In this document: positions 12,872 through 29,500 of the stretch, piece by piece | Position numbering within the stretch: the first letter of the stretch is position 1 | Layout: the number at the start of each line of letters is the position of its first letter | Origin: Phocaeicola coprophilus DSM 18228 = JCM 13818 | Lineage (GTDB): Bacteria; Bacteroidota; Bacteroidia; Bacteroidales; Bacteroidaceae | Direction of reading: 5' to 3' | DNA: 49,522 nucleotides | Assembly: GCF_000157915.1 (NCBI RefSeq) | Contig: NZ_EQ973631.1 | Location: 208,587-258,108, forward strand | Made by a program: the position numbers and the translations under genes | The notes under the pieces: model-generated | Database searches by the model: none | Told to the model about the DNA's origin: nothing | What the model saw: the letters and a program-made list of their open reading frames with translations, nothing else

Positions 12872-15001
12872 TTACTGCTCTTCCAGTGAACATCCTATCT
12901 GGTCGAATGGCAACTGCGGGAATCCCTGTATATACTTATATATGGGAGCATCTTCCTTGAATCCTTTCAGCGGATTTTCCGGATCTATAAATCCCGGATC
13001 GTTGTTGGTAGACCAGTTGTTCCGGAATTCTCCCCATTGAGTCTGTCCGTTCACGATGTTTTTGATGCGGTAGAACAGGTTTCCTTCTATTACATTGCCA
13101 TGAGGGTAGGAGGGATCTTCTTCCCAGTAATGTGCCAGAAACGGATAAGTCGTGCTGTAAGGTGCCTCCTTGTATTTTACTGTTTTCAGGCGCTGGTCAA
13201 TGATTCCATCAGGTGCAACCATTCCTGTTCCCCAGTTCTGCATGCGGTTGTCCAGGTGGATGGCTACAGGTGAATCAATGAAAATGTTGTGATGATAGTG
13301 GTTGTAATGTCCGCCTCCGATCAGTACGGGGAGTGAGCCGGCATTGTGGTAGATGTTTCCGTACACTTCACCTCCACAGGCTCCGTCGTCATGATAGGTA
13401 GCTGTGACACGGTGGCGCGGGCTGAGTTTGTGGAAGTAACAGTAACGGATTACGTTGCCCAGTTCCGACGGATCCCGTCCATAATAGATAGCTCCCTGGT
13501 CATCAACCTCACTGCATACATTCGTGATCTTACAGAATTCAATCGTGTGATTGTTCCCGTGAAAGAGAATAGCCATGCTGGGAGCGTTGTAGATGTCGCA
13601 TTTGCTTACCCGGTTGCCAACACCATCGATCCAGATACCGGGCCTGTATGACTTTTCTACGCGGTTAAAATCATGGATGCGGCAGTTTTCCACAAAGTTT
13701 CCGGCCGGAGTAAGTGTGGCACGGTCACCTCCACCCAGACTGATACCTCCGCTTCCTGTGTTGTAGATGTAGCAGTCGGTGATTCCGTTATCGGTTCCGC
13801 CGTTGCGGTTGAAAAGGATATCCTGATATAGTCTTCCCATAAGATCGCCCACGACACGTGATTTAGGCGTTCCTCCGGCTTCTGCGGCATGTGGTTTCAG
13901 TGTCTTCTTGTCGGGCGTTTCTGTTCCTTTTCCTATGGAAATACCTACACCGCCGACATTACGGACCGTACATCCGGTGATGCGTACATGCTGTGTGTTT
14001 TCAAGATAAATCCCGATGGACCGTCCGTATTCGAAGGTTAGTTTGCTGAGGGTGATGTTCCGGCAGTTTTCTATGGCAACCAGCGGGTCGTTCATGACAG
14101 AGACATTCAAGGTACGGGTATTTTCAGGCAGATAGACATACATCTTTCCGTTTTCCTTATCAATGACATATTCGCCCGGGAGATCCAGTTCTTCGAGCAG
14201 ATTCAGGGCATACCAGCGTCTCCAGTCAGCTCCTGTCATAAATCCGTAGACGGTCTGCTGTGCGGTATGAATGGTCTTTGTTTCGGGATCCAGATGATCT
14301 ACGCGTATCATGTCGCTGGCATAGCCGTGTGCAAAATAACCGCCTATCCAGAAGGATCCTGCCTGAGTCCAGGCCGACGGGCGGTCTTCGTTGTATTGGA
14401 ATACGGGTAGTTTGGCTTCTTTGACTTTCTCTCCAGTTCCGGCTTCCAGAACTTTGCCTATCAGTACCGTAGAATCGTTGGGCCAGCGTGACAGGCTGAG
14501 AGGTGCATCATTGGCAAAAAGTTCGCTCCATGCGGGGCTGCTGGGACGCCCGAAACCGGACGGACGCAGGTCGGTCATGGGAATGTTAAGCCGGTTGAAA
14601 TCTATTTCCCGTATTTGTTTACGGGCGCTTTCGGGGAGTCGTGCGATAATTTTCTTATCGGATACTTTCTTCATGGCCGAAAGGGGAATCTCTTTTCCTC
14701 CGGAAATGCTTACCTTTTCATTCTGGTACGGGCAGATGGTCAGGGAAGCATATTTCCCGCTGCTGCCTATCTCCAGTGTTTGGGACTGTTCGTAGATGCC
14801 TTTGCGTAAGATGATCTGTACGTCTTCATTTTCCAGTGTTCCGGCTTTCTCCAAAGCAGCCTGAATACTTTTCAGCGGGTGTGTAAAAGTTCCCGCTGCG
14901 CGGTCATTGCCTTTGGGGGATACGAAAATTTGTTTTTCAGCCCATGCAGATAGAGTAGTGCATCCCCAGAAGGTCAGTAACATAAGTAAGGAATGTTTCA
15001 T
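12872..15001 (-). CDS. Secreted right-handed parallel beta-helix protein, possible polysaccharide-degrading enzyme
   Basis: The 709-residue product starts with a signal peptide (KHSLLMLLTFWGC then SAWA before residue 22), so it is probably periplasmic. The start of the mature protein, IFVSPKGNDRAAGTFTHPL, is the usual opening of pectin-lyase-fold proteins. Residues about 300-640 are rich in short N-G-x-I-x-x-C-x-I turns typical of beta-helix rungs. The overall plan resembles proteins annotated as GH141-like, but I cannot identify catalytic residues, so the substrate and even enzymatic activity are unproven. It is divergent from susC and probably belongs to the same glycan system. A TTTG / TTACTTTG promoter lies upstream at 15036-15067. 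Confidence 0.75.
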   Translation of the reverse strand: MKHSLLMLLTFWGCTTLSAWAEKQIFVSPKGNDRAAGTFTHPLKSIQAALEKAGTLENEDVQIILRKGIYEQSQTLEIGSSGKYASLTICPYQNEKVSISGGKEIPLSAMKKVSDKKIIARLPESARKQIREIDFNRLNIPMTDLRPSGFGRPSSPAWSELFANDAPLSLSRWPNDSTVLIGKVLEAGTGEKVKEAKLPVFQYNEDRPSAWTQAGSFWIGGYFAHGYASDMIRVDHLDPETKTIHTAQQTVYGFMTGADWRRWYALNLLEELDLPGEYVIDKENGKMYVYLPENTRTLNVSVMNDPLVAIENCRNITLSKLTFEYGRSIGIYLENTQHVRITGCTVRNVGGVGISIGKGTETPDKKTLKPHAAEAGGTPKSRVVGDLMGRLYQDILFNRNGGTDNGITDCYIYNTGSGGISLGGGDRATLTPAGNFVENCRIHDFNRVEKSYRPGIWIDGVGNRVSKCDIYNAPSMAILFHGNNHTIEFCKITNVCSEVDDQGAIYYGRDPSELGNVIRYCYFHKLSPRHRVTATYHDDGACGGEVYGNIYHNAGSLPVLIGGGHYNHYHHNIFIDSPVAIHLDNRMQNWGTGMVAPDGIIDQRLKTVKYKEAPYSTTYPFLAHYWEEDPSYPHGNVIEGNLFYRIKNIVNGQTQWGEFRNNWSTNNDPGFIDPENPLKGFKEDAPIYKYIQGFPQLPFDQIGCSLEEQ

Positions 15002-15642: not shown

Positions 15643-18600
15643 ATGAAGAAAAATTATCTACATGAAAGAAAAGCACATCTGCCATTCGTGCTGGCTTTAG
15701 GACTGATTGCTGCTCCTATTCCCGCTCTGGCAGAGACTGAAGCTCCGCATGCTGATGCTGTAGCTACAGTAAATCAACAAAAGGTTACCATTAGTGGTAT
15801 AGTAAAGGATGAAGCTGGTGAACCGATCATCGGAGCTTCTGTAATTGAAAAGGGAAATGCGATGAACGGTGTCATTACTGACCTGGACGGACGTTTCTCT
15901 TTGAGCCTTTCCGGAAATGCAGTGGATATTAGTTATGTAGGTTACAAAACCCAGACTATTAATCTGAAAGCCGGTGTTCGTGAATACAATGTTGTTCTTC
16001 ACGAAGATACGGAAATGCTGGATGAAGTAGTGGTTGTCGGTTATGGCGTTCAGAAGAAGAGTAACTTGACAGGTTCTGTTGCTTCGGTAGATTCTAAGGT
16101 ACTGGATACCCGTCCGGTTTCCAGCGTATCTGCTGCCTTGGCAGGACAGATGCCGGGTGTAACCGCTATTCAGACCTCTGGTGCTCCGGGTTCTCAGGCC
16201 AGCTCGATCACTATCCGTGGTAAGAACTCTATTAATGCAGCTTCTCCGCTGGTAATCGTAGACGGTGTTCCGGGTAGCATGAATACTATCGACCCGGCTG
16301 ATATCGAGTCATTGACCGTATTGAAAGATGCTGCTTCGGCTGCAATCTATGGTGTGCAGGCTGCGAATGGTGTCATCCTGATCACTACGAAACAGGGTAA
16401 GAAGGGTGACAAGACACGCATCAATTATTCAGGTACTTTCTCATGGGCTTCTCCGGTTGCCAAGCGTGAATATGTAAATGCTTACGAATTTGCAACCTTA
16501 TATAATGAGGCTACTTACAATGAGAACCCTAATGCTCCGTTGCCTTTCACTGAAGAACAGATCGAACAGTATCGTACCGGTGCTCTGCCCAGTACAGACT
16601 GGTATGATGCAGCATTCAAGAAGAATGCTTTCGAACAGATGCACAATGTATCTATCAGCGGTGGCTCTGAAAAGACAACTTACAACGGATCTCTAGGATA
16701 TACCAAGCAGAACGGTTTGACGGATGAAATTGACTATTCTCGTTTCAATGCCCGTATGAACCTGACTTCTGATATCAATAAATACCTGACAGTAGGTATG
16801 AATGCTTCTGGTTATCGTGGCGTATCTCAAGATGCTTGGAATGGATTTATCAATGTATTCCAGGGAGTTTCCCGTCAGTATCCGACAGATCCGATCTACA
16901 ATGAGGATGGTACATTCTACTATTCTGGTAAAGATAATCCGGTGGCTGTACAGGGAGGAAAGTCTGGTTTTACCCGTAATACTCAGCAGGAGTTAAATCT
17001 GACCACTTTCGCTACCATCCACATCTTGCCGGAACTGAGTGTGAAGGGTGTTTATTCTGTTCGTAATTATACAAGCAATCAGGATGGATTCAAACGTCAT
17101 TTCTCTTATGGAAATGAAGCATCTTCTTTCGATTCTGGTTTGCGTGAAGGATATGATAAATATTATACCAACAATTACTATACCGGACAGGTCCTGATCA
17201 ACTACAATAAGACATTTGGCAAACACACCATCGGTGCATTGGCCGGATTTGAGTCTTATGAGCACATCTATAAATATACAGAGGCAACTCGTAAGGGTGG
17301 AGGTAATGATGAACTGGGAGAATCCTTAAATACTTTGGATGAATCTTCACAGAAGAATAGCGACGGTGGCTATGAAATGGCCCGTCTGTCTTATTTCGGC
17401 CGTATCCAGTATGACTATTTGGGTAAGTACCTGTTCGAAGCCAATCTTCGTAGTGATGCTTCTTCCCGCTTCCCGAAAGACAATCGTTGGGGTGTATTCC
17501 CTGCTTTCTCTGCCGGATGGCGTATCTCAGAAGAATCCTTCGTGAAGGATAACATTGACTGGCTGAGCAACCTGAAGTTGCGTCTGGGTTGGGGTAAGAC
17601 CGGTAACGAAGAGTTGTCAAGCAGCGATATTTATCCGGCTGTCCCGACTTATGCATACGGAAGTTACATGTTTGGAAATACGTTGTATTCAACAGCATAT
17701 GAAAGCCGTTATGTAAACTATAACTTGCAGTGGGCAACCGTAACCAACTATGAAGTTGCGTTGGAAGGTGGTTTCCTGAACAACATGCTGGGCTTTGAAC
17801 TGGCTGTGTACAAGAAGAAAACCAATGACATGTTGCTGTATATGCCGATTCAGGGTGTTATCGGTATGAGTGCTCCTGCACAGAATGCCGGTAATGTGGA
17901 AAATACTGGTTTTGACTTGAATCTGTTCCACAACAAGAATATCGGTAAGGACTGGAGTTATAACATTGCTTTGAATGTAAGCTATGTGAAGAACGAAATT
18001 ACAAACATGAATGGAACAGAAGGTCCGACTAGCAATGATAAGATCTGGAATCTGGAAGGCTATCCTATCGGTTCTTATTATGGACTGGTTGCTGACGGAT
18101 TCTTCAATACGGAAGATGATCTGAAGAACTGTCCGAAACGTACAGGTCAGGAAAAACTGGGAGATATCAAGTATAAGGACCTGAACGGTGACGGCAAGAT
18201 TACAAACGATGGTGACCGTCAGATTATCGGTAAGAACTTCCCGAGCTGGACAGGTGGTTTGAGCTTCAGTGTTCGCTATAAGAACTTTGACCTGAGCGGT
18301 TTGTTCCAGGGCGCCTTTGACGTGGATGGTTACTTTACTTCAGAAGCGGCTTATGCATTCTTTAATGGCGCAACAGCCTTGAAGAGACATCTGGATCGCT
18401 GGACTCCGGAAAATCACGATGCAACTTATCCGCGTATTACCAAGTCAGACCAGACAAATTTTGTAACTTCTTCATTCTGGTTGCAGGATGCTTCTTACGT
18501 TCGTCTGAAGAACCTGACTTTGGGCTATACTTTGCCGAAAGACTGGATGACTAAACTGGGTGTAACCAATGCGAAATTGTTCCTTTCAGGTGAAAACTTG

Positions 18601-18711
18601 CTTACTTTCTCTGGTCTGGATGGAGGTATCGATCCGGAAGAAGGAGCTGAACGTGGTTGGTCATACGGTAACGTTAAGAAAATTTCTCTCGGAGTAAGAC
18701 TTTCATTCTAA
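15643..18711 (+). CDS. SusC-type TonB-dependent outer-membrane glycan transporter
   Basis: SusC-like proteins import oligosaccharides across the outer membrane with TonB energy and a SusD lid. The 1022-residue protein has a signal peptide ending ALA at 30, a carboxypeptidase-regulatory-like domain at about 47-118 (VTISGIVKDEAGEPIIGASV), and a TonB-box-like stretch LDEVVVVGYG near 126-135. A plug domain follows to about 255 (TIRGKNSINAASPLVIVDGV), then a long beta barrel ending in phenylalanine. The first domain is the usual SusC extension. It is followed 25 bases later by susD. Codon use is close to that of the ribosomal genes, implying high expression when induced. The substrate cannot be read from sequence. 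Confidence 0.95.
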   Translation: MKKNYLHERKAHLPFVLALGLIAAPIPALAETEAPHADAVATVNQQKVTISGIVKDEAGEPIIGASVIEKGNAMNGVITDLDGRFSLSLSGNAVDISYVGYKTQTINLKAGVREYNVVLHEDTEMLDEVVVVGYGVQKKSNLTGSVASVDSKVLDTRPVSSVSAALAGQMPGVTAIQTSGAPGSQASSITIRGKNSINAASPLVIVDGVPGSMNTIDPADIESLTVLKDAASAAIYGVQAANGVILITTKQGKKGDKTRINYSGTFSWASPVAKREYVNAYEFATLYNEATYNENPNAPLPFTEEQIEQYRTGALPSTDWYDAAFKKNAFEQMHNVSISGGSEKTTYNGSLGYTKQNGLTDEIDYSRFNARMNLTSDINKYLTVGMNASGYRGVSQDAWNGFINVFQGVSRQYPTDPIYNEDGTFYYSGKDNPVAVQGGKSGFTRNTQQELNLTTFATIHILPELSVKGVYSVRNYTSNQDGFKRHFSYGNEASSFDSGLREGYDKYYTNNYYTGQVLINYNKTFGKHTIGALAGFESYEHIYKYTEATRKGGGNDELGESLNTLDESSQKNSDGGYEMARLSYFGRIQYDYLGKYLFEANLRSDASSRFPKDNRWGVFPAFSAGWRISEESFVKDNIDWLSNLKLRLGWGKTGNEELSSSDIYPAVPTYAYGSYMFGNTLYSTAYESRYVNYNLQWATVTNYEVALEGGFLNNMLGFELAVYKKKTNDMLLYMPIQGVIGMSAPAQNAGNVENTGFDLNLFHNKNIGKDWSYNIALNVSYVKNEITNMNGTEGPTSNDKIWNLEGYPIGSYYGLVADGFFNTEDDLKNCPKRTGQEKLGDIKYKDLNGDGKITNDGDRQIIGKNFPSWTGGLSFSVRYKNFDLSGLFQGAFDVDGYFTSEAAYAFFNGATALKRHLDRWTPENHDATYPRITKSDQTNFVTSSFWLQDASYVRLKNLTLGYTLPKDWMTKLGVTNAKLFLSGENLLTFSGLDGGIDPEEGAERGWSYGNVKKISLGVRLSF

Positions 18712-18736: not shown

Positions 18737-20368
18737 ATGAAAAAATATTTATCTATTATAGCAGCAGCCCTGCTGATGGGAAGTTTCTCATCATGTAGTG
18801 ACTTCTTGGATCGCTATCCTTTGGAAGAACTTTCAGATGAAAGTTTCTGGAAAACCGAAAAGGATGCAGAAATGGCGGTCTCTAATCTTTACAATGTCCT
18901 CCCGACCTGGGATACGGATGAAGCTATTAACTCTGACGATGCCGTTCATGGTATCAAATGGGCGGCCGGTAACCAGTCTAAGGGTGTTTATGACCCGTCT
19001 GACTACGGATGGAGCGGAGAATATGGTTATATCCGTCAGGCAAACCTGATTCTGGAAAAGATTCAGGAAATGGATTTGAGCGAAGATGCCTATAAGAAAC
19101 TGGAAGGACAGGCTCGTTTCTTCCGTGCTTATACTTACTTCACCTTGATCCGTAGCTTTGGTGCAGTTCCTTATATCGACAATCCGCTGGAACTGACTGA
19201 TGTGGAGAACATTACCCGTACTCCGAAGGACGAAGTATATGCCAAGGTGATGGAAGACTTTGATATAGCTATTGCAAATCTTCCGGTTCAGTGGGATGAA
19301 ACAAATTCCGGACGTATCACTAAAGGTGCAGCCATGGCTATGAAAGCCAGAGCAGCTTTGTACTACAACAACTGGGAAACTGCCATGACTGAAGCCAAGA
19401 ATGTAATGGATCTGGGTCAGTATGAATTGTATGACAAGGACAATACAGGCCGTTACAAAGAATTGTTCTGGGAAGTGGCTGACGGATGTGACGAATTTAT
19501 TCTGTCTGTACAGTTCAATGCTCCTACCAGAACACACTATCTGATCGGTTGGGAATGCTTCCCGACACTGGGATGGGGTGGTTTGAACCCGACTCAGAGC
19601 CTGGTAGATGCATTTGAAGATATCAATGGTGCTCCTATTACAAGCGAGGCTTCTGTTTATGATCCGACAAATCCGTTTGCTAACCGTGACCCGCGTCTGG
19701 AAGTAAACGTTCTGCATGACGGTGAAACAATGTATGGCGTAACGATCAAGGTAGCTCCGTTGAGTTCAAGTGGTAATACAGGTATCGGTCAGCATGGTGA
19801 TGCAACAGCTACCGGTTACTACCAGCAGAAATGGCTGGATCCGTCTATCGATCCGCAGTCAACCGGATGGGATATGGGTAAAGACTGGGTCGTTATCCGT
19901 TACGCCGAAGTGCTGTTGACTTATGCTGAAGCCAAGAACGAATTGTCTCCGCTGGATCCTTCTGCATTCGATGCAGTCAATCAAGTTCGTCGTCGTGTAG
20001 GTATGCCTGACCTGCAGAATACCGATCCGACTAAACCGACTTATTGCGGTACTCAGGACGATCTGCGTAAACGTATCTGGAATGAATGGCGTGTAGAATT
20101 TGCACTGGAAGGTGGAAAACGTCAGTGGGATATCCGTCGCTGGGGTATTGCCAAGGATGTATTGAACGCACCGTTTGAAGGTTTGAGATATACTTTGGTT
20201 GATGATCCGAATGCGCCGAAAGGTGATAATGGAAAGAAATGTATCCTTTATGTAGGTGAACCGCTTAAACTGGCCGGAAGTCACTATGAAGATCACAACT
20301 ATTTGTTGCCGATTCCTCAGACTGAAATCGATTTGAATCCGAAACTGGAACAGAATCCGGGTTATTGA
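18737..20368 (+). CDS. SusD/RagB-family surface glycan-binding lipoprotein
   Basis: SusD-like lipoproteins form the hinged lid over the SusC barrel and bind the glycan outside the cell. The 543-residue protein has a lipoprotein signal with acylated Cys20 (MGSFSSC), then SDFLDRYPLEELSDESFW, the standard SusD opening. The helical TPR-like core includes GQARFFRAYTYFTLIRSFG, and the C terminus LLPIPQTEIDLNP is typical. It follows susC with 25 bases between and is closed by a strong terminator, so the pair is one transcript, with lower expression beyond. Confidence 0.95.
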   Translation: MKKYLSIIAAALLMGSFSSCSDFLDRYPLEELSDESFWKTEKDAEMAVSNLYNVLPTWDTDEAINSDDAVHGIKWAAGNQSKGVYDPSDYGWSGEYGYIRQANLILEKIQEMDLSEDAYKKLEGQARFFRAYTYFTLIRSFGAVPYIDNPLELTDVENITRTPKDEVYAKVMEDFDIAIANLPVQWDETNSGRITKGAAMAMKARAALYYNNWETAMTEAKNVMDLGQYELYDKDNTGRYKELFWEVADGCDEFILSVQFNAPTRTHYLIGWECFPTLGWGGLNPTQSLVDAFEDINGAPITSEASVYDPTNPFANRDPRLEVNVLHDGETMYGVTIKVAPLSSSGNTGIGQHGDATATGYYQQKWLDPSIDPQSTGWDMGKDWVVIRYAEVLLTYAEAKNELSPLDPSAFDAVNQVRRRVGMPDLQNTDPTKPTYCGTQDDLRKRIWNEWRVEFALEGGKRQWDIRRWGIAKDVLNAPFEGLRYTLVDDPNAPKGDNGKKCILYVGEPLKLAGSHYEDHNYLLPIPQTEIDLNPKLEQNPGY

Positions 20369-20502: not shown

Positions 20503-21981
20503 ATGCGGAAACAACTACATTATATTCTGTTTATAGTTCTCTTTATTATTTATGCGGCTTGTTACCAGGATGTCCTGTCGCATATTATATTTTATCAGGA
20601 ACAACATCATCTGTTTCTGTTTTCAACAGCGTATTTCACGCATAGCCTTCATACGGAAGGATGGATGAGCTGGCTGACGGATTTTCTGATTCAGTTTTTC
20701 CACTTGCCTTTGCTGGGAAGCTGTCTGATGGCAGGTATCTTGTCCTCTGTTTATTTGCTGGTCCGTTTCATTATTTATCGGATAACGGGGAAAAGAGATT
20801 TGCTCCAGCTGGCTTTGCTTCCTTCCTTATATTTGTTTCTTCAGACTGTGTCGGCAGATGCGTCATTGGTGCCGGTAGTTTCAGTCTGGGTAAGTCTGTT
20901 GGTCGTGGCTGTATATTGCTGGCTGTTGTCTCCCTGGTTAAGAAAGCTGCACCGGCTGATTCCGGATATTAGCTTGAAACCGGCAGTGTACTGGGCGGTC
21001 ACTGTCATTGTTCTGCTGATGTACGGAGGTGGTACTTTCTACAAATTCCTTCAGAAGTATGATATCCGGGAGTATCGGATGCTGAAAGCGGAACAGGCTG
21101 TCAAGGAGCGAAATTGGGATGATGTGCTGATGCAGACAGAAAAATATCTGAAGCGTCAGGCGAATAACCAGCTTATTTTCTATTTTCGCAACATGGCTCT
21201 TTATCATACGGGACAATTGCTGGATCATCTGCTGGACTATCCCCTGAACATGGGAGTAAAGGCTCTTTATTTCCCCTGGAACAGTGACAGTCGGGAAAGT
21301 GAATACGGGCATTTCCTGTATGAGGATCTTGGATACATCAATGAAGCACAGCGTTGGGAATTCGAAGCGATGGTGGTTTGGGGAGAAACTGCTCCTCATT
21401 TGCTGAATCTGGCCAGATACAATGTGGTCAACAAACGTCCGGAAGTGGCGCGCCGCTTCATCAACCTGCTCAAGCAGTCGCTTTTCTATCGGAAAGAAGC
21501 TGAACAACTGGAAGCTGCTTTGCATACCGGAAAGGTTCCTGGTCTGCGGGCACCGCTGGCTGATGTGAAAGAATCACCGGCCCGCTTTGCCAATGTCCTC
21601 AATATCGGTCCGGAGCTGCAGTATCTTTGTGAGAAGGACTCGACCAACCGGATGGCTTTTGAGTATCTGATGTGTGACTTGTTGCTGAGTAATCAGGTGG
21701 TACGCTTTGTGGATAATCTGAAGTATATGCGTCATTTTGATTATCCCCGGATGCCGAGACTGTTTGAAGAAGCTTTGTTCATGTACCGTTCAGGAGTCGG
21801 TGAAGAAGAATTTTCGAAGACCGGTTATTCGGTCAGTCCGGAGACAGAGGAACGTTTTAAACATTATTATCAGCTTTATCAGCAGAAGGATATGCGGAAG
21901 CTGAGACTGGAGTTCGGAAATTCATATTGGTATTATTTAAACTTTGTCAGTCCTTATGGGAATAAAATCATTGCGCGTTAA
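20503..21981 (+). CDS. Polytopic membrane protein with helical-repeat C terminus (copy A; resembles DUF6057-type proteins)
   Basis: I recognise the type only by resemblance to Bacteroides proteins labelled DUF6057; the function is unknown. The 492-residue product has about five hydrophobic segments (6-22, 68-92, 100-116, 121-145, 161-178). A soluble region of about 300 residues follows, with paired amphipathic helices that look TPR-like. The end carries FGNSYWYY. It is paralogous to 26265-28031, which shares AQ...FEAM, PRLFEEA and the GNxYWYY ending but has more membrane spans. The next gene overlaps its last 26 bases in another frame, so the two products are probably made together. Confidence 0.75.
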   Translation: MRKQLHYILFIVLFIIYAACYQDVLSHIIFYQEQHHLFLFSTAYFTHSLHTEGWMSWLTDFLIQFFHLPLLGSCLMAGILSSVYLLVRFIIYRITGKRDLLQLALLPSLYLFLQTVSADASLVPVVSVWVSLLVVAVYCWLLSPWLRKLHRLIPDISLKPAVYWAVTVIVLLMYGGGTFYKFLQKYDIREYRMLKAEQAVKERNWDDVLMQTEKYLKRQANNQLIFYFRNMALYHTGQLLDHLLDYPLNMGVKALYFPWNSDSRESEYGHFLYEDLGYINEAQRWEFEAMVVWGETAPHLLNLARYNVVNKRPEVARRFINLLKQSLFYRKEAEQLEAALHTGKVPGLRAPLADVKESPARFANVLNIGPELQYLCEKDSTNRMAFEYLMCDLLLSNQVVRFVDNLKYMRHFDYPRMPRLFEEALFMYRSGVGEEEFSKTGYSVSPETEERFKHYYQLYQQKDMRKLRLEFGNSYWYYLNFVSPYGNKIIAR

Positions 21982-23449
21982 TGCTGCACTTTGTCTTTGG
22001 ATATTAATATGTGGAGTTGTCCTGTCCGGATGTGGATATACCTGGCAGGAAGTGGACCGGATGTCGGGAAAGGCTCCCCGGATTTATCCGGATTATAGTG
22101 GTGTAGTGTTTCCACTGAATATTGCTCCTCCTAATTTCGTGATTCAGGAAGAAGGTGACCGTTTCCAGGCAGCTTTCGGACATGACGGGAAAGTGGATTT
22201 TGTTTGTGGAGGAAGCGATCCGGAAATTATTATTCCGGAAGATAAATGGAAAGAACTGACGGAACAGGCTGCGGGTCAGGAAATCTTTATACGCATTGCT
22301 GTCCGGCAAAATGGAAGCTGGACGGGATTTACGGATATCAAGGATACGGTCAGCCAGGATCCGATTGATCCTTATCTGGTTTATCGTTTGCTTTATCCGG
22401 GTTATGAGTTATGGAATGAAATGGGAATCTATCAGCGGGACCTGACCGGATATGAGGAATTCCCGGTTCTTGAAAATAAAGATTTTGGAAAACAATGTCT
22501 GAACTGCCATACATTCAACCACAATTCTCCGGATGAAATGATGATTCATGTGAGAGGAAAGGATGGAGGAACGTTGATACGGCGGAACGGTACCCTTGAA
22601 AAGGTGAGTGCATCTCCTCAGGGAGCTGCTCACGGAAGTACGTATCCGGCCTGGCATCCCAGTGGAAAATACATTGCTTATTCCATGAATGAGATTCAGC
22701 AGTTCTTTCATGCGAACGGACAAAAGCCGATTGAAGTATCTGACCTGGCAGCGGATCTGGGTGTGTATGATGTGGTACGTCATGAGATGCTGACAGATTC
22801 TTTAATTTATGGAGACGGAGCCATGGAGACATTCCCTGCCTGGTCACCGGATGGGCGGACACTTTATTTCTGTCGGGGAAATGCCTATCACCAGGGAGCA
22901 GCTTTGGACAGTCTGCGCTATGATTTGTGTTCAATTGATTTCGATCCGGAGACCGGCCGCTTTGGAGATCGGATAAATTGTCTGTATGAAGCTTCTGCAA
23001 AAGGGAAAAGTGTATCTTTCCCCCGTGTTTCGCCGGATGGCTGTTATCTGCTGTTTACGCAGTCGGATTATGGAAACTTTTCAATCTGGCATCCGGAGAG
23101 TGATCTTTATCTGTTGGAACTGGCCAACGGAAAAATTCATGAACTTCCTTCTGTAAACAGTAAGGATGTAGATAGTTTCCACACCTGGTCTTCTTCCGGA
23201 AAATGGTTTGTCTTCAGCAGTAAAAGGCTGGATGGACTGTGGGCCCGTCCGTTCTTTGCTCATTTTGACCCAACGACCGGACAGGCAAGCAAACCTTTCC
23301 TGCTTCCTCAGAAAGATCCGCATTTTTATGAAACGTTTACGCGTACTTATAATTTGCCGGAACTAGTGAAGGCACCGGTATCAGACCAGAAAGCATTGCT
23401 TCAGACTGTTTTCAGTACGAATGTCGTAACGACGTTGAAAAAGCAATAA
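21956..23449 (+). CDS. Beta-propeller (PD40/TolB-like) lipoprotein with CxxCH motif, copy A
   Basis: The function is unknown. The ATG at 21956 is preferred over a TTG at 21944 because it gives a clean lipoprotein signal (GVVLSGC, Cys26) and 497 residues. A single CLNCH motif at residues 181-185 has the form of a c-type haem attachment site. C-terminal to it are four PD40-like blades: YPAWHPSGKYIAY, FPAWSPDGRTLYF, FPRVSPDGCYLLF and FHTWSSSGKWFVF. The paralogue at 28031 keeps the motif and blades. Signal peptide and haem motif both fit a location outside the cytoplasm. It overlaps the upstream membrane-protein gene by 26 bases. Haem binding is inference only. Confidence 0.75.
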   Translation: MGIKSLRVNAALCLWILICGVVLSGCGYTWQEVDRMSGKAPRIYPDYSGVVFPLNIAPPNFVIQEEGDRFQAAFGHDGKVDFVCGGSDPEIIIPEDKWKELTEQAAGQEIFIRIAVRQNGSWTGFTDIKDTVSQDPIDPYLVYRLLYPGYELWNEMGIYQRDLTGYEEFPVLENKDFGKQCLNCHTFNHNSPDEMMIHVRGKDGGTLIRRNGTLEKVSASPQGAAHGSTYPAWHPSGKYIAYSMNEIQQFFHANGQKPIEVSDLAADLGVYDVVRHEMLTDSLIYGDGAMETFPAWSPDGRTLYFCRGNAYHQGAALDSLRYDLCSIDFDPETGRFGDRINCLYEASAKGKSVSFPRVSPDGCYLLFTQSDYGNFSIWHPESDLYLLELANGKIHELPSVNSKDVDSFHTWSSSGKWFVFSSKRLDGLWARPFFAHFDPTTGQASKPFLLPQKDPHFYETFTRTYNLPELVKAPVSDQKALLQTVFSTNVVTTLKKQ

Positions 23450-23483
23450 GAAATTTTTTTATTCATCTATTTTGTAAAGTATT

Positions 23484-26121
23484 ATGAGGCACATTTTAGT
23501 ATTGTTGAGGGTGTGTATGTTTTTGTCCGTTCGGGGAGCGGAAGCTCAGCCTTCTTATCCATTTCAGGATTCTACCTTGACGGTGGAAGCCCGTTTGAAT
23601 GACCTGGTTGAACGAATGACGCTGGAAGAGAAAATAGACCTTCTCGCCGGTTATGAGGATTTTTATCTTCATCCGTGTGAACGTCTGGGCATTCCGGCCT
23701 TTAAAATGGCAGACGGTCCGTTGGGGGTTTCGTCATGGGGAATCTGGGGAAGAGCAACAGCTTTTCCGGCTGCTTTAGCCCTGGCTGCATCGTGGGATAA
23801 AGAACTGGCAGAAAAGACCGGCCGCATGTATGCTCAGGAATGGCGTGCGCGTGGCATTCATTTCATGCTGGCTCCCGGGGCAAACATTTACCGTGCTTCA
23901 AAAGGAGCAAGAAACTTTGAGTATTTCGGTGAAGATCCTTATTTGTCTTCTGAAATGCTGGTTCCTTTTGTAAAGGCCGTTCAGGCTGGGGGAGTCATTC
24001 CTACGATCAAACATTATATCGGAAATGATCAGGAGTTCGACCGTTATACTGTCAGCACGGAAATGGATGAACGTACCTTGCGCGAAATTTATCTTCCTCC
24101 TTTCAAGGCAGCTGTGCAGCGTGCAGATATTAAAGCAGTGATGACCGGATACAATCCTTTCCAGGGAACCTATTGTACAGAGAACAGTTTCGTGATTGAC
24201 ATCCTGAAAAAAAGAATGGGGATTCAAGGGAATGCTGATGTCGGACTGGGCTTGTACTTATTCGGCAGACAAGGCAGCCAAGAATGGTCTGGATCTGGAA
24301 ATGGGAAGTAACGACTGGTTTGTCCGTGAAAAACTTTTGCCATTGATACAGGACGGCACAATTACAGAAGAACTGATTAATGAAAAGGTCAGAAGAATAT
24401 ATGGTCCTTGCATCGAGATGGGATTCTTTGACCGTCCGCAGTTGTGTAAGGACATTCCATTGTTTAATCCGGATGCCAACAGACTGGCTCTGGAAGAAGC
24501 AGAAAAAGGAATTATCCTGTTGAAGAATGCAGACGGTGTACTTCCCTTGAAGTCTCCGAAGAAGATTGCTGTTATCGGACCGACTGCGAATCCGTATGTT
24601 ATATCCGATCGTGTCTACAATACGAATGGCATTGTTTACGGAGGCGGTGGAAGTTCGCGTGTGCATCCCTGGTATGTTATCAGTGATCTGGATGGAATCC
24701 GTAATGAGTTCCCTGATGCAGAGATCTATTATGCTGAGGGAGTTTCCAACCAGTTTAAGAGACGCCTGTTCCGGACTAGTGTATTCCGTACCCGGGATGG
24801 AAAGAAAGGACTGGAAGCTAAATACTATACCTGTTCTTCCGATACCGGAACGTTGTCTTCCCGTTTGCTGGAACAGCAGGCAAAAGCAGCCGGACGTTCT
24901 TCTGCCGGTCAGACTTCATCCGTATCGCGTCAGCAGGCTGATGGTAATCTGATCTTGTCAATGGTAGAACCTCGGATAGATAACGAATGGTGGGGATATC
25001 CGCATAACGAAAAGAATCTGGGTGAAGAATACCAGGTTGAGTGGGACGGTTATGTAGATGTTCATCAGACAGACAGCCTTCGTTTCTTTGTGGATGCACA
25101 GGGAGGATATAAGCTTTGGCTGGATGATCAGCTGATGCTGGATGCTTCGAAGTCACAGTCGTTCGATGTCCGGAATGTGGCAGTAGCTGTAGAAAAAGGT
25201 TCCAGTGTTCATGTCCGTCTGACTTATTATAACCAGCGCAGTCTTCCTTCGGAGATCCGTATGGGATATGCTTATGATTCTGACATTGATTTCAGTGAAG
25301 CCAAGCAGGTGGCCAAACAGGCAGACGTCGTGATCTGTTGTCTTGGTCTTGACGGAAGCATTGAGTTGGAAGGCCGTGACCGTCCGTTTGACCTTCCTTT
25401 TGGTCAGGACCGTCTGGTGGATGAACTGCTTCAGGTGAATCCGAATGTTGTAGTAGTGCTTCATGCCGGCGGAGGAGTTGGAATGACTCGTTGGATTGAC
25501 CGTGTTCCGGCTGTGCTTCATGCTTTCTATCCGGGACAGGAAGGAGGAAATGCTTTGGCACATATCTTGTCGGGAAAGGTAAATCCTTCGGCTAAGTTGC
25601 CTTTTACCATTGAAAAGCGTTGGGAAGATTCACCGGCGTGCGGAAACTATGATGAAACCCGTCGCGAGAAAAAGGTATATTATCGGGAAGGAATCTTTAC
25701 CGGTTACCGGGGATATGAACATAATCAGGTGCAGCCGCTTTTCCCGTTCGGATATGGACTGTCTTATACAACCTTCTCTTATTCCGGACTGGAAGTGAAA
25801 GTTGACGACCGGAAGAAGGGAGATGTAACGGTACGTTTCTCTGTCCGTAACGATGGTAAACGTGAAGGAGCAGAAGTCGTACAGCTGTACGTGAGCGATC
25901 CGAAATCAGGTGAGCCCCGTCCGGTGAAGGAGCTGAAAGGATTTGAAAAAGTAAACCTGAAACCCGGAGAGACACAGACTGTAACTTTGAAACTGACTCA
26001 GGATGATTTCTCTTATTTCAGCAGTAAGAAGCGGAAATGGGTCTTCGAAAAAGGAGATTTCGTAATCCGGGTTGGTGCATCCTCTCAGGATATCCGTCTG
26101 GAGGAGACCATCCGTCTGTAA
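23484..26121 (+). CDS. GH3 family glycosidase with PA14 insert, frameshifted
   Basis: GH3 enzymes release terminal beta-linked sugars from oligosaccharides. The gene is split into frames 23484-24311 and 24232-26121. Removing one A from the A7 run at 24207-24213 restores ILKKEWGFKGMLMSDW, the standard sequence around the nucleophile (Asp254), and gives 878 residues. Order of parts: signal peptide (to about 21), GH3 N domain with KHYIGNDQE, GH3 C domain interrupted by a PA14 domain at about 440-600, the ELEGRDR motif (Glu627 or Glu629 as likely acid/base), and a fibronectin-III-like C domain. Substrate could be beta-glucoside or beta-xyloside. The extra A is probably a sequencing error; a real phase-variable or dead gene is the alternative. 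Confidence 0.88.
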
Positions 26122-26177
26122 GGATAAACAGAATTTGTCAGGCCTGCCTGTTTTATTTTATAACCTGATTTTTTTTG

Positions 26178-26237
26178 AGAAACCCTTTCTTATCGGTACT
26201 TTTGTCGGCAAAACAGAAGACCGGAGAAAGGGTTTCT
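26178..26237 (+). other. Hairpin in the leader of the second membrane/propeller cassette
   Basis: AGAAACCCTTTCT (26178-26190) is perfectly complementary to AGAAAGGGTTTCT (26225-26237), with an inner CGGT/ACCG helix. It follows an eight-T run rather than preceding one, so it is not a standard terminator for the GH3 gene. It lies 27 bases before the next ATG and could be an attenuator or mRNA-stability element. Confidence 0.6.
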
Positions 26238-26264
26238 TCTTTAAACCTTCTAAAAATTTTTACT

Positions 26265-28031
26265 ATGATCAAATTAAATCGGGCAGGACAGGTAGCAGGA
26301 TGGCTTTTGGTTTTTATCCTGATGACTGGGTACTGTCAGCATTATTTTGCTTACAATTATTTTTATGCGGAACAGTTTTACCTCTTTCGCTTTGACAGTG
26401 ATTACGCCTGGCAAACTCTTTCGCAGCCGGGGGGAGTAGTGATCTATCTGGCCGCTTTTCTGACTCAGTTCTTTTTTTATTCTTATGCAGGAGCAGTTTT
26501 GTCTGCTTTGCTGTTTACAATGATTGCCTGGCAGATGTCCAGATATTGGAAACGCATAGCTCCGAATATCCTTGCTCCGTTGTTCTACTTTCTGCCGTCG
26601 GTTGCCTTGCTGTGGATACAGACAGATTTCAATTACCATTGGGAAGGAACACTGGCTTTGTGGATTTCTTTGTTGATGCTGGATGTTTGTCTGGCTGTCC
26701 GGAAGAATTTGTTCCGTTGGGTAATTACAGGAGTATGGGCAATTTTCGGCTATTATTTCGTCGGTCCTTACGGTTTGTTGACAGTAGCAGGTGTGGTTAT
26801 GGCTGATCTGTTTACAAGACAAACCTCGCAGAAGTGGTGGGCCTTATGCCTGTTACTTCTTGCAGGAATTGTTCCTCTTACCTTATATTATAAGGATATT
26901 GTGCTGGAATGGCGTTTCCTGTTGACGTCTGATGCCTATTATCATTCTCGCTTAAATCCTCCGGCTATGCTTGCCTATGCCGGATGGGCCTGCTTGTTGA
27001 ATCTGACAGCCGCCTGTCTGTTGAGCCGGAAAACTTTTTCTGCGGGACGGTGGGGAAGGATATGCCTGCCCGTTGCTCAGATTGTTCTGCTTGCCTGGCT
27101 GATGCATTCGGGAAGTCTCCGCTATAATTCCGTGAAAAACTATGAGGCCAAAACTCTCGATTATTACTGTCGGACTGGACAATGGCAGGAAGTCCTGGAT
27201 TTCCCCGGCCTGCGGTCTGATCGAAATATGATGCATGCCTGTTATCAGAACCTGGCGTTGTCGCATCTGGATCAATTAGGAGACCGTCTGTTTGACTATA
27301 AGCAATGCGGCCCGCAGGGGCTGGTGCTTCCTTCTAACCGTTCGGTCAATGCTTCTACGTTGTTGAGTGACATTTATTATCAGATGGGAAACGTGGCTTT
27401 GGCACAGGAGATGGCTTTTGAGGGAATGATCGCTTCCGAACGGGCGGTGAATCCCCGCTTGCTTTTGCGTCTGATTCAGACTAATCTGATTTACGGTTAT
27501 GATAATGTGGCTGAGAAATACATTCGCCTCTTGGAACAGACACTGGCTTATGCCGACAAAGCGAGTCGGTATAGACAGTTCCTCGGACATCCGGAGAAGA
27601 TGAAAGCAGATCCGGAACTGGGAGGACGGTATGCATGTGTGCAGCATCTTTCCGGATTGACCAATGAAACTCAGCTGATTCCAAATCTGGAACAGATTAT
27701 CCATTCGAATACTTCCTGGCGTCCGGCTTTTCAGTATTATGGTGTTATGTGCCTGCTGAGCAAGGATATGAAGGCGATTCGTGACTTTATTGAACACACC
27801 AAGGGAATGCCAGGCATGAAGCCGATGCCTCGTCTGTTTCAGGAAGCCGTTATTCAGGTGCATGAAGGAGAAGAAGAGGTGTGGGCAGATTATGGAGTGA
27901 CTCCGCAGGTGGCGCAACGCTTCAAGGCTTACCGGCAGGCTGTTCTGTCGGCACGGAGATCAGGACAGATGTATGGCTTGCAAGGCTCGTATGGAAACAC
28001 TTATTGGTATTATTATATGTTTAGACGCTGA
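26265..28031 (+). CDS. Polytopic membrane protein with helical-repeat C terminus (copy B; resembles DUF6057-type proteins)
   Basis: Unknown function, paralogue of 20503-21981. An in-frame ATG at 26175 exists, but it would place coding sequence across the 13-bp hairpin. The ATG at 26265 gives MIKLNRAGQVAGWLL, aligned with the first membrane span, and 588 residues, so it is chosen. About eight hydrophobic segments occupy the first 300 residues. The rest is soluble and helical, with AQEMAFEGM, PRLFQEAV and GNTYWYYY shared with copy A. The stop codon overlaps the start of the propeller gene (TGATG), which implies translational coupling. The cassette is therefore duplicated on both sides of the GH3 gene. 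Confidence 0.75.
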   Translation: MIKLNRAGQVAGWLLVFILMTGYCQHYFAYNYFYAEQFYLFRFDSDYAWQTLSQPGGVVIYLAAFLTQFFFYSYAGAVLSALLFTMIAWQMSRYWKRIAPNILAPLFYFLPSVALLWIQTDFNYHWEGTLALWISLLMLDVCLAVRKNLFRWVITGVWAIFGYYFVGPYGLLTVAGVVMADLFTRQTSQKWWALCLLLLAGIVPLTLYYKDIVLEWRFLLTSDAYYHSRLNPPAMLAYAGWACLLNLTAACLLSRKTFSAGRWGRICLPVAQIVLLAWLMHSGSLRYNSVKNYEAKTLDYYCRTGQWQEVLDFPGLRSDRNMMHACYQNLALSHLDQLGDRLFDYKQCGPQGLVLPSNRSVNASTLLSDIYYQMGNVALAQEMAFEGMIASERAVNPRLLLRLIQTNLIYGYDNVAEKYIRLLEQTLAYADKASRYRQFLGHPEKMKADPELGGRYACVQHLSGLTNETQLIPNLEQIIHSNTSWRPAFQYYGVMCLLSKDMKAIRDFIEHTKGMPGMKPMPRLFQEAVIQVHEGEEEVWADYGVTPQVAQRFKAYRQAVLSARRSGQMYGLQGSYGNTYWYYYMFRR

Positions 28032-29500
28032 TGAAAAAGACTGTTATGAAATATGTGGGGCGCACAGGTTGTCTGTCCATGCTCCTGGGTCTGTTGATGT
28101 CCTGTTCACCGCAGGAACCTGTATCGGAACAGACATTGAAGGGTTGTCCGGCCATTCTCCCGGATTATACCGGGGTAACAATTCCTTCGAACATAGCTCC
28201 TTTGCGCTTTGCATTGGAGGAGGAAGCAGAGAAAGCCGTTGCTGTTATTTCGGGTCGTAAGGATAAACTGATAGTAGACGCTGAAGACGGTTCTTTTCTG
28301 ATCCCGGAAAAGAAATGGCATGAACTGCTGGAGTCTTCAGTAGGTGACTCTCTGCAGGTGAAAGTGTACGTTCGCAAAGACGGCCGATGGTGTATGTATG
28401 AACCCTTCTCCTGGCATATCTCTCCGGACGAACTGGATGCTTTTCTGGTATATCGCCTGATTGAGCCGGGGTATGAACTCTGGAACCGGATGGGAATATA
28501 CCAGCGTGACCTGACTTCTTTCGAACAGAAATCAATATTGACCAATGAGAAGACGCAGCATAACTGTATGAATTGTCATTCCTTCAATAACCGGGAGCCG
28601 GATCGTATGGTGTTTCACATGCGTGCCCAACTGGGCGGAACATATCTGAGCGAACCGGATGGAGTGAAACGGCTGGAGGCTAAGATCAATGGCAAAGTAC
28701 AGTCGTTGGTTTATCCTTCATGGCATTCCTCTGGAAGATTTATTGCTTTCTCCATGAACCAGACGAAGCAGGCTTTTCATCAGAACGACCGGAACCGGAT
28801 TGAGGTGTTTGATTTCTCCTCCGATGTGGTCGTCTATGACTTGGAACGTGATGCCGTTCTGACCGATTCGTTACTGATGAAACAGACAGCTTTTGAAACA
28901 TTCCCAACCTTCTCGCCTGACGGGAAGAAACTTTATTTCTGTTCAGCTGAAGCAAAAACATTGCCTTACGAGTTTGATCAGGTGAAATATAGTTTGTGCT
29001 CGATTGATTTTGATGCTGAAAGCCGAAGTTTCGGAACGCAGGTGGATACCTTATATAATGGACGTCTGAAGAATAAAAGTGTGTCCTTCCCGAGGGTTTC
29101 TCCGGATGGCCGTTTTCTGGTCTTTACCTTGTCTTCGTATGGGAATTTTTCAATCTGGCATAAAGATGCAGATCTGATGATGGTTGATCTGAAGACCGGA
29201 CAGGTTTCGGAACTGGAAGGTGTGAACAGTAATGATGTGGAAAGTTATCATTCCTGGAGCAGTAACGGACATTGGCTGGTGTTCAGCAGTCGTCGGGTAG
29301 ACGGGCTTTATACTCACCCTTATCTGGTGCATGTGGATGGAGAAGGGCATTGGAGCAAACCATTTGCCGTACCACAGTCCGATCCTCAGTTCTATCGTAA
29401 CTTTATGTATTCCTTCAATATACCGGAACTGGTGAAAGGCGAGGTGAAGCTTGACAAGCGGGCTCTGATCAGAAAAGCATCGGAGAAAAAGCCGGAGTGA
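28031..29500 (+). CDS. Beta-propeller (PD40/TolB-like) lipoprotein with CxxCH motif, copy B
   Basis: Unknown function, paralogue of 21956-23449. The 489-residue protein has a lipoprotein signal (GLLMSC, Cys25) and the conserved lead-in DYTGVTIPSNIAPL. The CMNCH motif is at 179-183, followed by SFNNREPDRM, where a methionine and histidine are also conserved with copy A. Four blades are visible: YPSWHSSGRFIAF, FPTFSPDGKKLYF, FPRVSPDGRFLVF and YHSWSSNGHWLVF. It starts on the last base of the membrane-protein gene. No clear terminator follows; the island ends here. If the motif binds haem, cytochrome-c maturation genes must exist elsewhere. Confidence 0.75.
   Translation: MKKTVMKYVGRTGCLSMLLGLLMSCSPQEPVSEQTLKGCPAILPDYTGVTIPSNIAPLRFALEEEAEKAVAVISGRKDKLIVDAEDGSFLIPEKKWHELLESSVGDSLQVKVYVRKDGRWCMYEPFSWHISPDELDAFLVYRLIEPGYELWNRMGIYQRDLTSFEQKSILTNEKTQHNCMNCHSFNNREPDRMVFHMRAQLGGTYLSEPDGVKRLEAKINGKVQSLVYPSWHSSGRFIAFSMNQTKQAFHQNDRNRIEVFDFSSDVVVYDLERDAVLTDSLLMKQTAFETFPTFSPDGKKLYFCSAEAKTLPYEFDQVKYSLCSIDFDAESRSFGTQVDTLYNGRLKNKSVSFPRVSPDGRFLVFTLSSYGNFSIWHKDADLMMVDLKTGQVSELEGVNSNDVESYHSWSSNGHWLVFSSRRVDGLYTHPYLVHVDGEGHWSKPFAVPQSDPQFYRNFMYSFNIPELVKGEVKLDKRALIRKASEKKPE

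Follow-up and report, generated by a model that had tools for sequence, protein, structure and literature searches.

Two adjacent genes that encode a polytopic membrane protein and an exported propeller lipoprotein form a real, conserved and undescribed two-protein envelope module. It occurs twice in the stretch of DNA analysed here, 49,522 nucleotides of Phocaeicola coprophilus DSM 18228 = JCM 13818 (contig NZ_EQ973631.1, positions 208,587 to 258,108; hereafter the window). The membrane protein, called D, is a member of DUF6057 (PF19529), and its partner P is a propeller lipoprotein with PD40 repeats (PF07676) and a CxxCH motif. Mostly paired and unnamed, the two genes are found across several Bacteroidales families, among them commensals that can be handled in the laboratory, for instance Parabacteroides distasonis. 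That D and P work jointly is well supported, and it is plausible that P binds a cofactor. Our preferred reading, to which a probability of roughly 0.45 is given, is that together they make up a single envelope complex, with P docked by D at the inner membrane and carrying that cofactor. The original prediction, made from the sequence of the window, had named the two pairs its best candidate for an undescribed system, and a characterised function for either family would have refuted it. The literature searches made, in which part of the matches were checked incompletely, yielded nothing that describes the module or names DUF6057.

In the window, susC, susD, D1, P1, a GH3 gene, D2 and P2 follow each other in this order, all on the plus strand. 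D1 (20503..21981, 492 residues) and D2 (26265..28031, 588 residues) score 299.2 bits (E 9.8e-89) and 568.9 bits (E 2e-170), respectively, against the DUF6057 cut-off of 29.8 bits, and P1 (21956..23449, 497 residues) and P2 (28031..29500, 489 residues) match PD40 with E values of 3.3e-16 and 8.6e-18. The predicted gene positions were reproduced from the sequence, as were the overlaps: 26 bases between D1 and P1, the latter read from its ATG start, and one base (TGATG) between D2 and P2. P1 and P2 each contain exactly one CxxCH and a lipobox-type cysteine. In P1 these are CLNCH (22496..22510) and the cysteine of LSGC (22031..22033); in P2 they are CMNCH (residues 179-183; 28565..28579) and C25 (28103..28105). 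None of the four proteins reached the cut-off of an NCBIfam model.

Co-occurrence of the two families was assessed in an order-level draw of 295 genomes, in which D was defined as DUF6057 over its cut-off and P as a strong P relative. At most the best four D and five P candidates were scored per genome, and the numbers of D and P are lower bounds; fragments belonging to a single D gene were joined, and D below 40 bits and P below about 100 bits were left out. D was found in 36 genomes and P in 35, with both in 34; two genomes had D alone (G351 and G405) and one P alone (G523). Among the D genes listed, 62/71 had a P gene within 3 kb, the largest gap being 366 bp, and these pairs comprised 53 in the order D then P on one strand, eight in the order P then D and one divergent arrangement. 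DUF6057 exceeded its cut-off in 6/395 genomes of a phylum-level draw and in 0/14 control genomes. A scan of named genomes gave at least 487 relatives, from which 80 loci were kept, among them loci of Parabacteroides, Tannerella, Bacteroides, Phocaeicola, Alistipes, Prevotella, Dysgonomonas, Odoribacter, Draconibacterium and Marinilabilia; D was absent from 7/80. The pair loci of the two samples partly overlap and were not summed (G699, the genome of locus L170, has its PF01578 match at the same position as G596). Of 141 loci overall, 133 contain D, 136 contain P and 128 contain both. D comes first in 138/148 adjacent same-strand pairs, and 66 of these 138 abut or overlap while 125 lie within 20 bp, overlap being overstated by the simple gene starts used. 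D and P are thus mostly one co-inherited unit of adjacent, often overlapping genes.

Removal of repeats reduced the 148 pairs to 145, of which 137 had both proteins longer than 350 residues. In this non-redundant set of 137 full pairs, the distance matrix of D correlated with that of P (r = 0.72). Partners also co-diverged within the 29 genomes or loci that hold several pairs (71 pairs; r = 0.64). When partners were swapped within a genome or locus, the correlation fell to 0.245 +/- 0.067, with a maximum of 0.52, and 0/2000 swaps reached 0.64. The correlated divergence shows that D and P are passed on together, as one unit.

Several observations temper the link between D and P. Co-divergence could stem from linkage alone and does not imply contact. 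Nine D and ten P were unpaired among the genes listed in the order-level draw, one D tallied as such (G596:C14) having in fact an adjacent P. The P. coprophilus genome carries a third, short D without P (G000:C57) and with a DUF5128/TolB_like fragment downstream, and 40 control regions contained two more D relatives without P, 275 and 385 residues long, so that unpaired short D are probably undercounted. The 385-residue protein follows a gene of 688 codons and the third D of P. coprophilus follows a branching-enzyme-like gene of 700 codons; because the two stand in similar settings, a subfamily of short, P-less D probably exists. The families, then, are not mostly apart, a finding that would have refuted the original prediction, but some D do without P. 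In the third-D locus (L152, 7239-11155), the branching-enzyme-like gene, the short D and the 200-residue DUF5128/TolB_like fragment follow one another; genes of like length surround the short D in L153, and in L261 (6049-7206) only the preceding gene is alike. The P-less D are perhaps linked to glycogen.

The two pairs of the window had been described as a duplicated cassette. Paralogy held gene for gene: D1 and D2 share 29% identity over 330 columns (E 1e-26), and P1 and P2 47% over 445 columns (E 1e-157), similarities which, judged by alignment, make both couples paralogous far beyond chance. Local tandem duplication, on the other hand, was ruled out because P1 and P2 fall into different clades of the P tree (137 rows, quick method), the well-supported branches of which need two separate placements. 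P1 clusters with the P of loci L143 and L132 (support 100) and P2 with those of L160 and L155 (support 96). The relatives of P1 are also located in susC-susD-D-P loci, with GH2-family genes, and the P2 relative of L160 is located after genes for a peptidase, a phosphatase-family protein and a Na/Ca exchanger. Tandem D-P pairs, less than 3 kb apart on the same strand, occur in 17/141 loci, the window included.

The original description of a polytopic membrane protein with a TPR-like domain, paired with a lipobox- and CxxCH-bearing propeller, was borne out at the level of prediction by models, hydropathy and alignment. The AlphaFold2 model of P2, built with 60 sequences, has a mean predicted local distance difference test score (pLDDT) of 94.5 and comprises a propeller and an N-terminal beta domain. 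Its closest fold is TolB (Z 27.4, 3.1 A, 276 residues aligned), followed by the alpha subunit of hydrazine synthase (Z 23.5), and a sequence search of solved structures gave only TolB-like repeats and weaker propellers for P. No cytochrome c profile was matched by P1 or P2 at E up to 1, or found in the commonest 25/54 Pfam families of 60 P proteins. In the 137 full P proteins, C-[MVILF]-N-C-H is invariant and the lipobox cysteine is aligned in 136. R198, D261 and N463 are kept in all 137, N243 in 135, H196 in 134 and H232 in 132, and H407 is kept in 59/64; the alignment contains no conserved third non-lipid cysteine. Site geometry was derived from DSSP and the sequence repeats, and it suggests that the propeller has six blades, the second of which bears CxNCH on its inner strand, H183 and H232 probably matching each other in position from one blade to the next. 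A periplasm-facing P is probable, because the protein has few acidic residues after the lipidated cysteine in comparison with SusD: at positions +2 to +6, P proteins have a mean of 0.71 (99/137 with a recognised lipobox, eight of them with two acidic residues) and SusD proteins a mean of 1.91 (58/77; p = 1.7e-15). A single weak PADLOC match of P2 (E 0.001) was not taken as meaningful, and a defence function was set aside.

The AlphaFold2 model of D2 (59 sequences, pLDDT 93.2) is all-helical and was read as about nine membrane helices followed, from around residue 307 onward, by a TPR-like domain; a hydropathy script gave seven membrane segments for D2, and five for D1 before its TPR-like domain. 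The loops of D1 contain 2, 0, 3, 0 and 3 basic residues and keep to the positive-inside rule, so the TPR end of D1 should be periplasmic. Two findings temper this picture: the family-wide positive-inside count is weak (86/137), and the TPR matches of D have Z values no higher than about 10, a level that chance similarity between helical repeats can produce. Structure matches of D in the PDB mainly cover the TPR part, and the sequence search of solved structures gave weak TPR-type matches and one transporter match only. Weak DUF6057 matches elsewhere in the phylum resemble FtsW/SEDS-type and other membrane proteins by eye and were taken as chance similarity of transmembrane segments. Mean column identity is 24% for D and 38% for P, and the lower conservation of D would be more in keeping with a scaffold than with an active site.

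On these grounds, P would be a TolB-like propeller that carries an N-terminal beta domain and faces the periplasm from a lipid anchor. D would be a bundle of helices in the inner membrane, with a C-terminal TPR-like domain that lies in the periplasm and docks P at the inner membrane. P would hold a cofactor at CxNCH, most likely a single c-type heme and otherwise a metal, and might act as a periplasmic redox protein or as one that senses or transforms a ligand. The unit would have been recruited beside SusC/SusD transporters and glycosidases in some lineages, that of the window included, and would stand apart from them elsewhere.

The spacing of CxxCH, with two invariant cysteines and a histidine in an exported protein, is the usual signature of c-type heme attachment. 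The cytochrome c assembly family PF01578 was matched in 35/35 P genomes of the order-level draw compared with 205/260 others (p = 0.0008), and among genomes without NrfA (PF02335) in 21/21 P genomes compared with 83/134 others (p = 0.0002). It was likewise matched in 49/50 named P genomes, the sole miss being a genome of 1.5 Mb. The P. coprophilus genome itself gave a PF01578 match (E 7e-29) and no match to PF02335. Its PF01578 gene (260 residues) lies behind a membrane open reading frame (ORF) of 299 residues, and the two, at 6816-8532 of L279, presumably correspond to CcsB-CcsA.

Against heme, the model places residues 179-185, around CxNCH, in a beta-strand with high confidence (DSSP, ligand-free model), whereas a helical turn is expected at the motif of c-heme sites; the C-hydrophobic-N-C-H pattern also suits a strand. 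The association with PF01578 may be due to kinship: in families with P genomes among their members, 27/30 P-lacking genomes among the matches listed have PF01578 (hand count, one match weak), a share that leans high because 35 further genomes without a match fall outside the list. A CCP/MauG-type gene, another possible client of the assembly machinery, is present in 7/21 NrfA-lacking P genomes, that of P. coprophilus included. The P. coprophilus genome gave no match to ResB (PF05140); nor did the control Bacteroides ihuae, which matches PF01578, so that ResB may be a poor probe for cytochrome c assembly here. The chance that P carries heme is put at about even.

The predicted strand position of the motif speaks for a rival reading, in which P would be a non-heme metalloprotein anchored by D. 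A metal would be bound within the propeller channel or close to it, as happens in propeller enzymes that use metals, by the cysteines and histidine of CxNCH together with H232, possibly joined by H196 and H407. The equivalence of H183 and H232 in adjacent blades and the conservation of H196, H232 and H407 are in keeping with such a site, and Foldseek ranks the Mn oligogalacturonate lyase 3pe7 seventh and the thiocyanate dehydrogenase 6g5m, with Cu, eleventh; thiocyanate dehydrogenase has Z 17.8. These two matches, however, share only a propeller with P and have Z values below that of TolB, which is not known to have such a metal, and the motif of an exported protein is the one customarily read as a c-heme site. 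A metal other than heme is regarded as rather unlikely, and the metalloprotein reading as tentative. Returning to the heme-bearing form of the D-P complex, a bolder version appears doubtful for now: P would be the first representative of a novel cytochrome c architecture, in which CxNCH on the innermost propeller strand attaches the heme, D would be its dedicated inner-membrane TPR partner, and the two would make up a new Bacteroidales periplasmic redox or sensing module repeatedly coupled to SusC/SusD loci. If P does carry heme, these anaerobes would gain a novel cytochrome c fold as well as a redox function in the periplasm that is tied to nutrient uptake loci.

The genomic neighbourhood bears on two further explanations. 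The pairs lie downstream of susC and susD in the window, as predicted: directly upstream are genes for a SusC-like TonB-dependent transporter (15643..18711, plus strand; Plug and CarbopepD_reg_2 matches) and a SusD-like lipoprotein (18737..20368, plus strand; SusD_RagB E 1.8e-57). A tie of the module to glycan loci did not hold in general. Within a region of about 20 kb, SusC was found in 20/52 and 24/52 long pair loci and in 6/40 controls (p = 0.019 and 0.0017), the controls being 40 stretches hand-picked, not drawn at random, from the large contigs of genomes that carry D or P, and some pairs adjoin core genes, such as those for PFK and LytB in P. distasonis. D and P might nonetheless be a non-enzymatic structural or assembly aid for SusC/SusD-type transporters, a TolB-like protein on a TPR scaffold in which the motif is structural. 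SusC and SusD both lie within four genes in 47/141 loci, and the order susC-susD-lipoprotein-(DUF4369)-D-P-D-P recurs. This explanation is improbable, since the other 94/141 loci lack SusC/SusD so near (some due to contig ends), pairs also stand beside core genes, and two invariant periplasmic cysteines without a third conserved non-lipid cysteine look non-structural.

Sensitive clustering detected a lipoprotein-like protein of about 283 residues within three genes in 17/141 loci and a DUF4369 protein within two genes in 8/141, each in 0/40 controls. A RidA/chorismatase-like gene lies within two genes of D or P in 16/141 loci (L184 and 15 others) and in 0/40 controls, and the fullest order, susC-susD-lipoprotein-DUF4369-D-P-D-P-RidA-like, is that of L184, a metagenome-assembled genome of Prolixibacteraceae. 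The RidA-like gene at D-P is accompanied in some loci by SusC/SusD and two lipoprotein-like genes, and a larger operon is possible. This gene might mark a biosynthetic or modification pathway with D as its membrane enzyme and P as the periplasmic partner. All three RidA-like proteins tested matched PF21168 and/or PF01042, and there is a match (E 1.6e-4) to 5ag3, a structure whose entry names a putative pteridine-dependent dioxygenase and which we take to be the chorismatase Hyg5. Such a pathway is very improbable: the gene is absent beside most pairs and from 11001-31040 of the window, and no membrane-enzyme family stood out for D among the commonest 25/31 Pfam families of 59 members. These 25 families likewise include no GT-C glycosyltransferase. 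Other operon mates are diverse, and among the proteins scanned (101/111 and 104/162) no third gene is universal.

The GH3 gene that was predicted between the pairs is present (23484..26121, plus strand) but is not a single intact gene, since its coding sequence is divided between two frames, with the break at about 24232-24311: PF00933 is matched on the ORF at 23484-24311, and PF01915 (GH3_C), PA14 and Fn3 on that at 24232-26121. The frame break is either a mutation or a sequencing error. Before D2, a regular-expression scan gave a putative promoter-like TTTG-N19-TANNTTTG (26174..26204, plus strand). The susC-susD-D-P-GH3-D-P block and a tatC gene lie between rpoC and rpsL (8480-31634; rpoC and rpsL named from their translations), inside the RNA polymerase/ribosomal cluster. 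Adjoining susC on the opposite strand is a gene (12872-15001) for a 709-residue right-handed beta-helix protein (PF13229), perhaps a carbohydrate-active enzyme.

Among known families, D1 and D2 are members of DUF6057, the Pfam name of which carries no function, and no dedicated family was found for P beyond the PD40 repeat. The alpha subunit of hydrazine synthase (5c2v; Z 23.5, 3.8 A, 284 residues aligned) resembles P as a TolB-like propeller in a c-heme protein, but it has 12% identity to P and different partners. The CxxCH of its heme alpha-I includes His587, which binds zinc, and this residue lies outside the chain range 53-417 aligned with P if the numbering is the same (PMC12607021). TfcP of Myxococcus xanthus, a periplasmic noncanonical c-type cytochrome reportedly unlikely to serve in electron transport (PMC8833165), is of interest only as a precedent for a non-redox heme role. 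BtuG and XusB are, like P, lipid-anchored propellers of Bacteroidota near TonB-dependent transporters, but their descriptions place them at the cell surface; XusB is a DUF4374 protein with a lipoprotein export signal (PMC13142918). P1 and P2, in contrast, have no DUF4374 match at E up to 1, and P is without the acidic export signal. The closest likeness is to TolB of the Tol-Pal system, which combines a PD40 propeller with an N-terminal domain and is the best structural match to P (Z 27.4). TolB and P nevertheless share 17% identity, and TIGR02800 scores 36.7 and 46.6 bits with P1 and P2 against an equivalog cut-off of 343 bits; P differs, moreover, in being a lipoprotein with CxNCH whose partner is a polytopic, TPR-like membrane protein.

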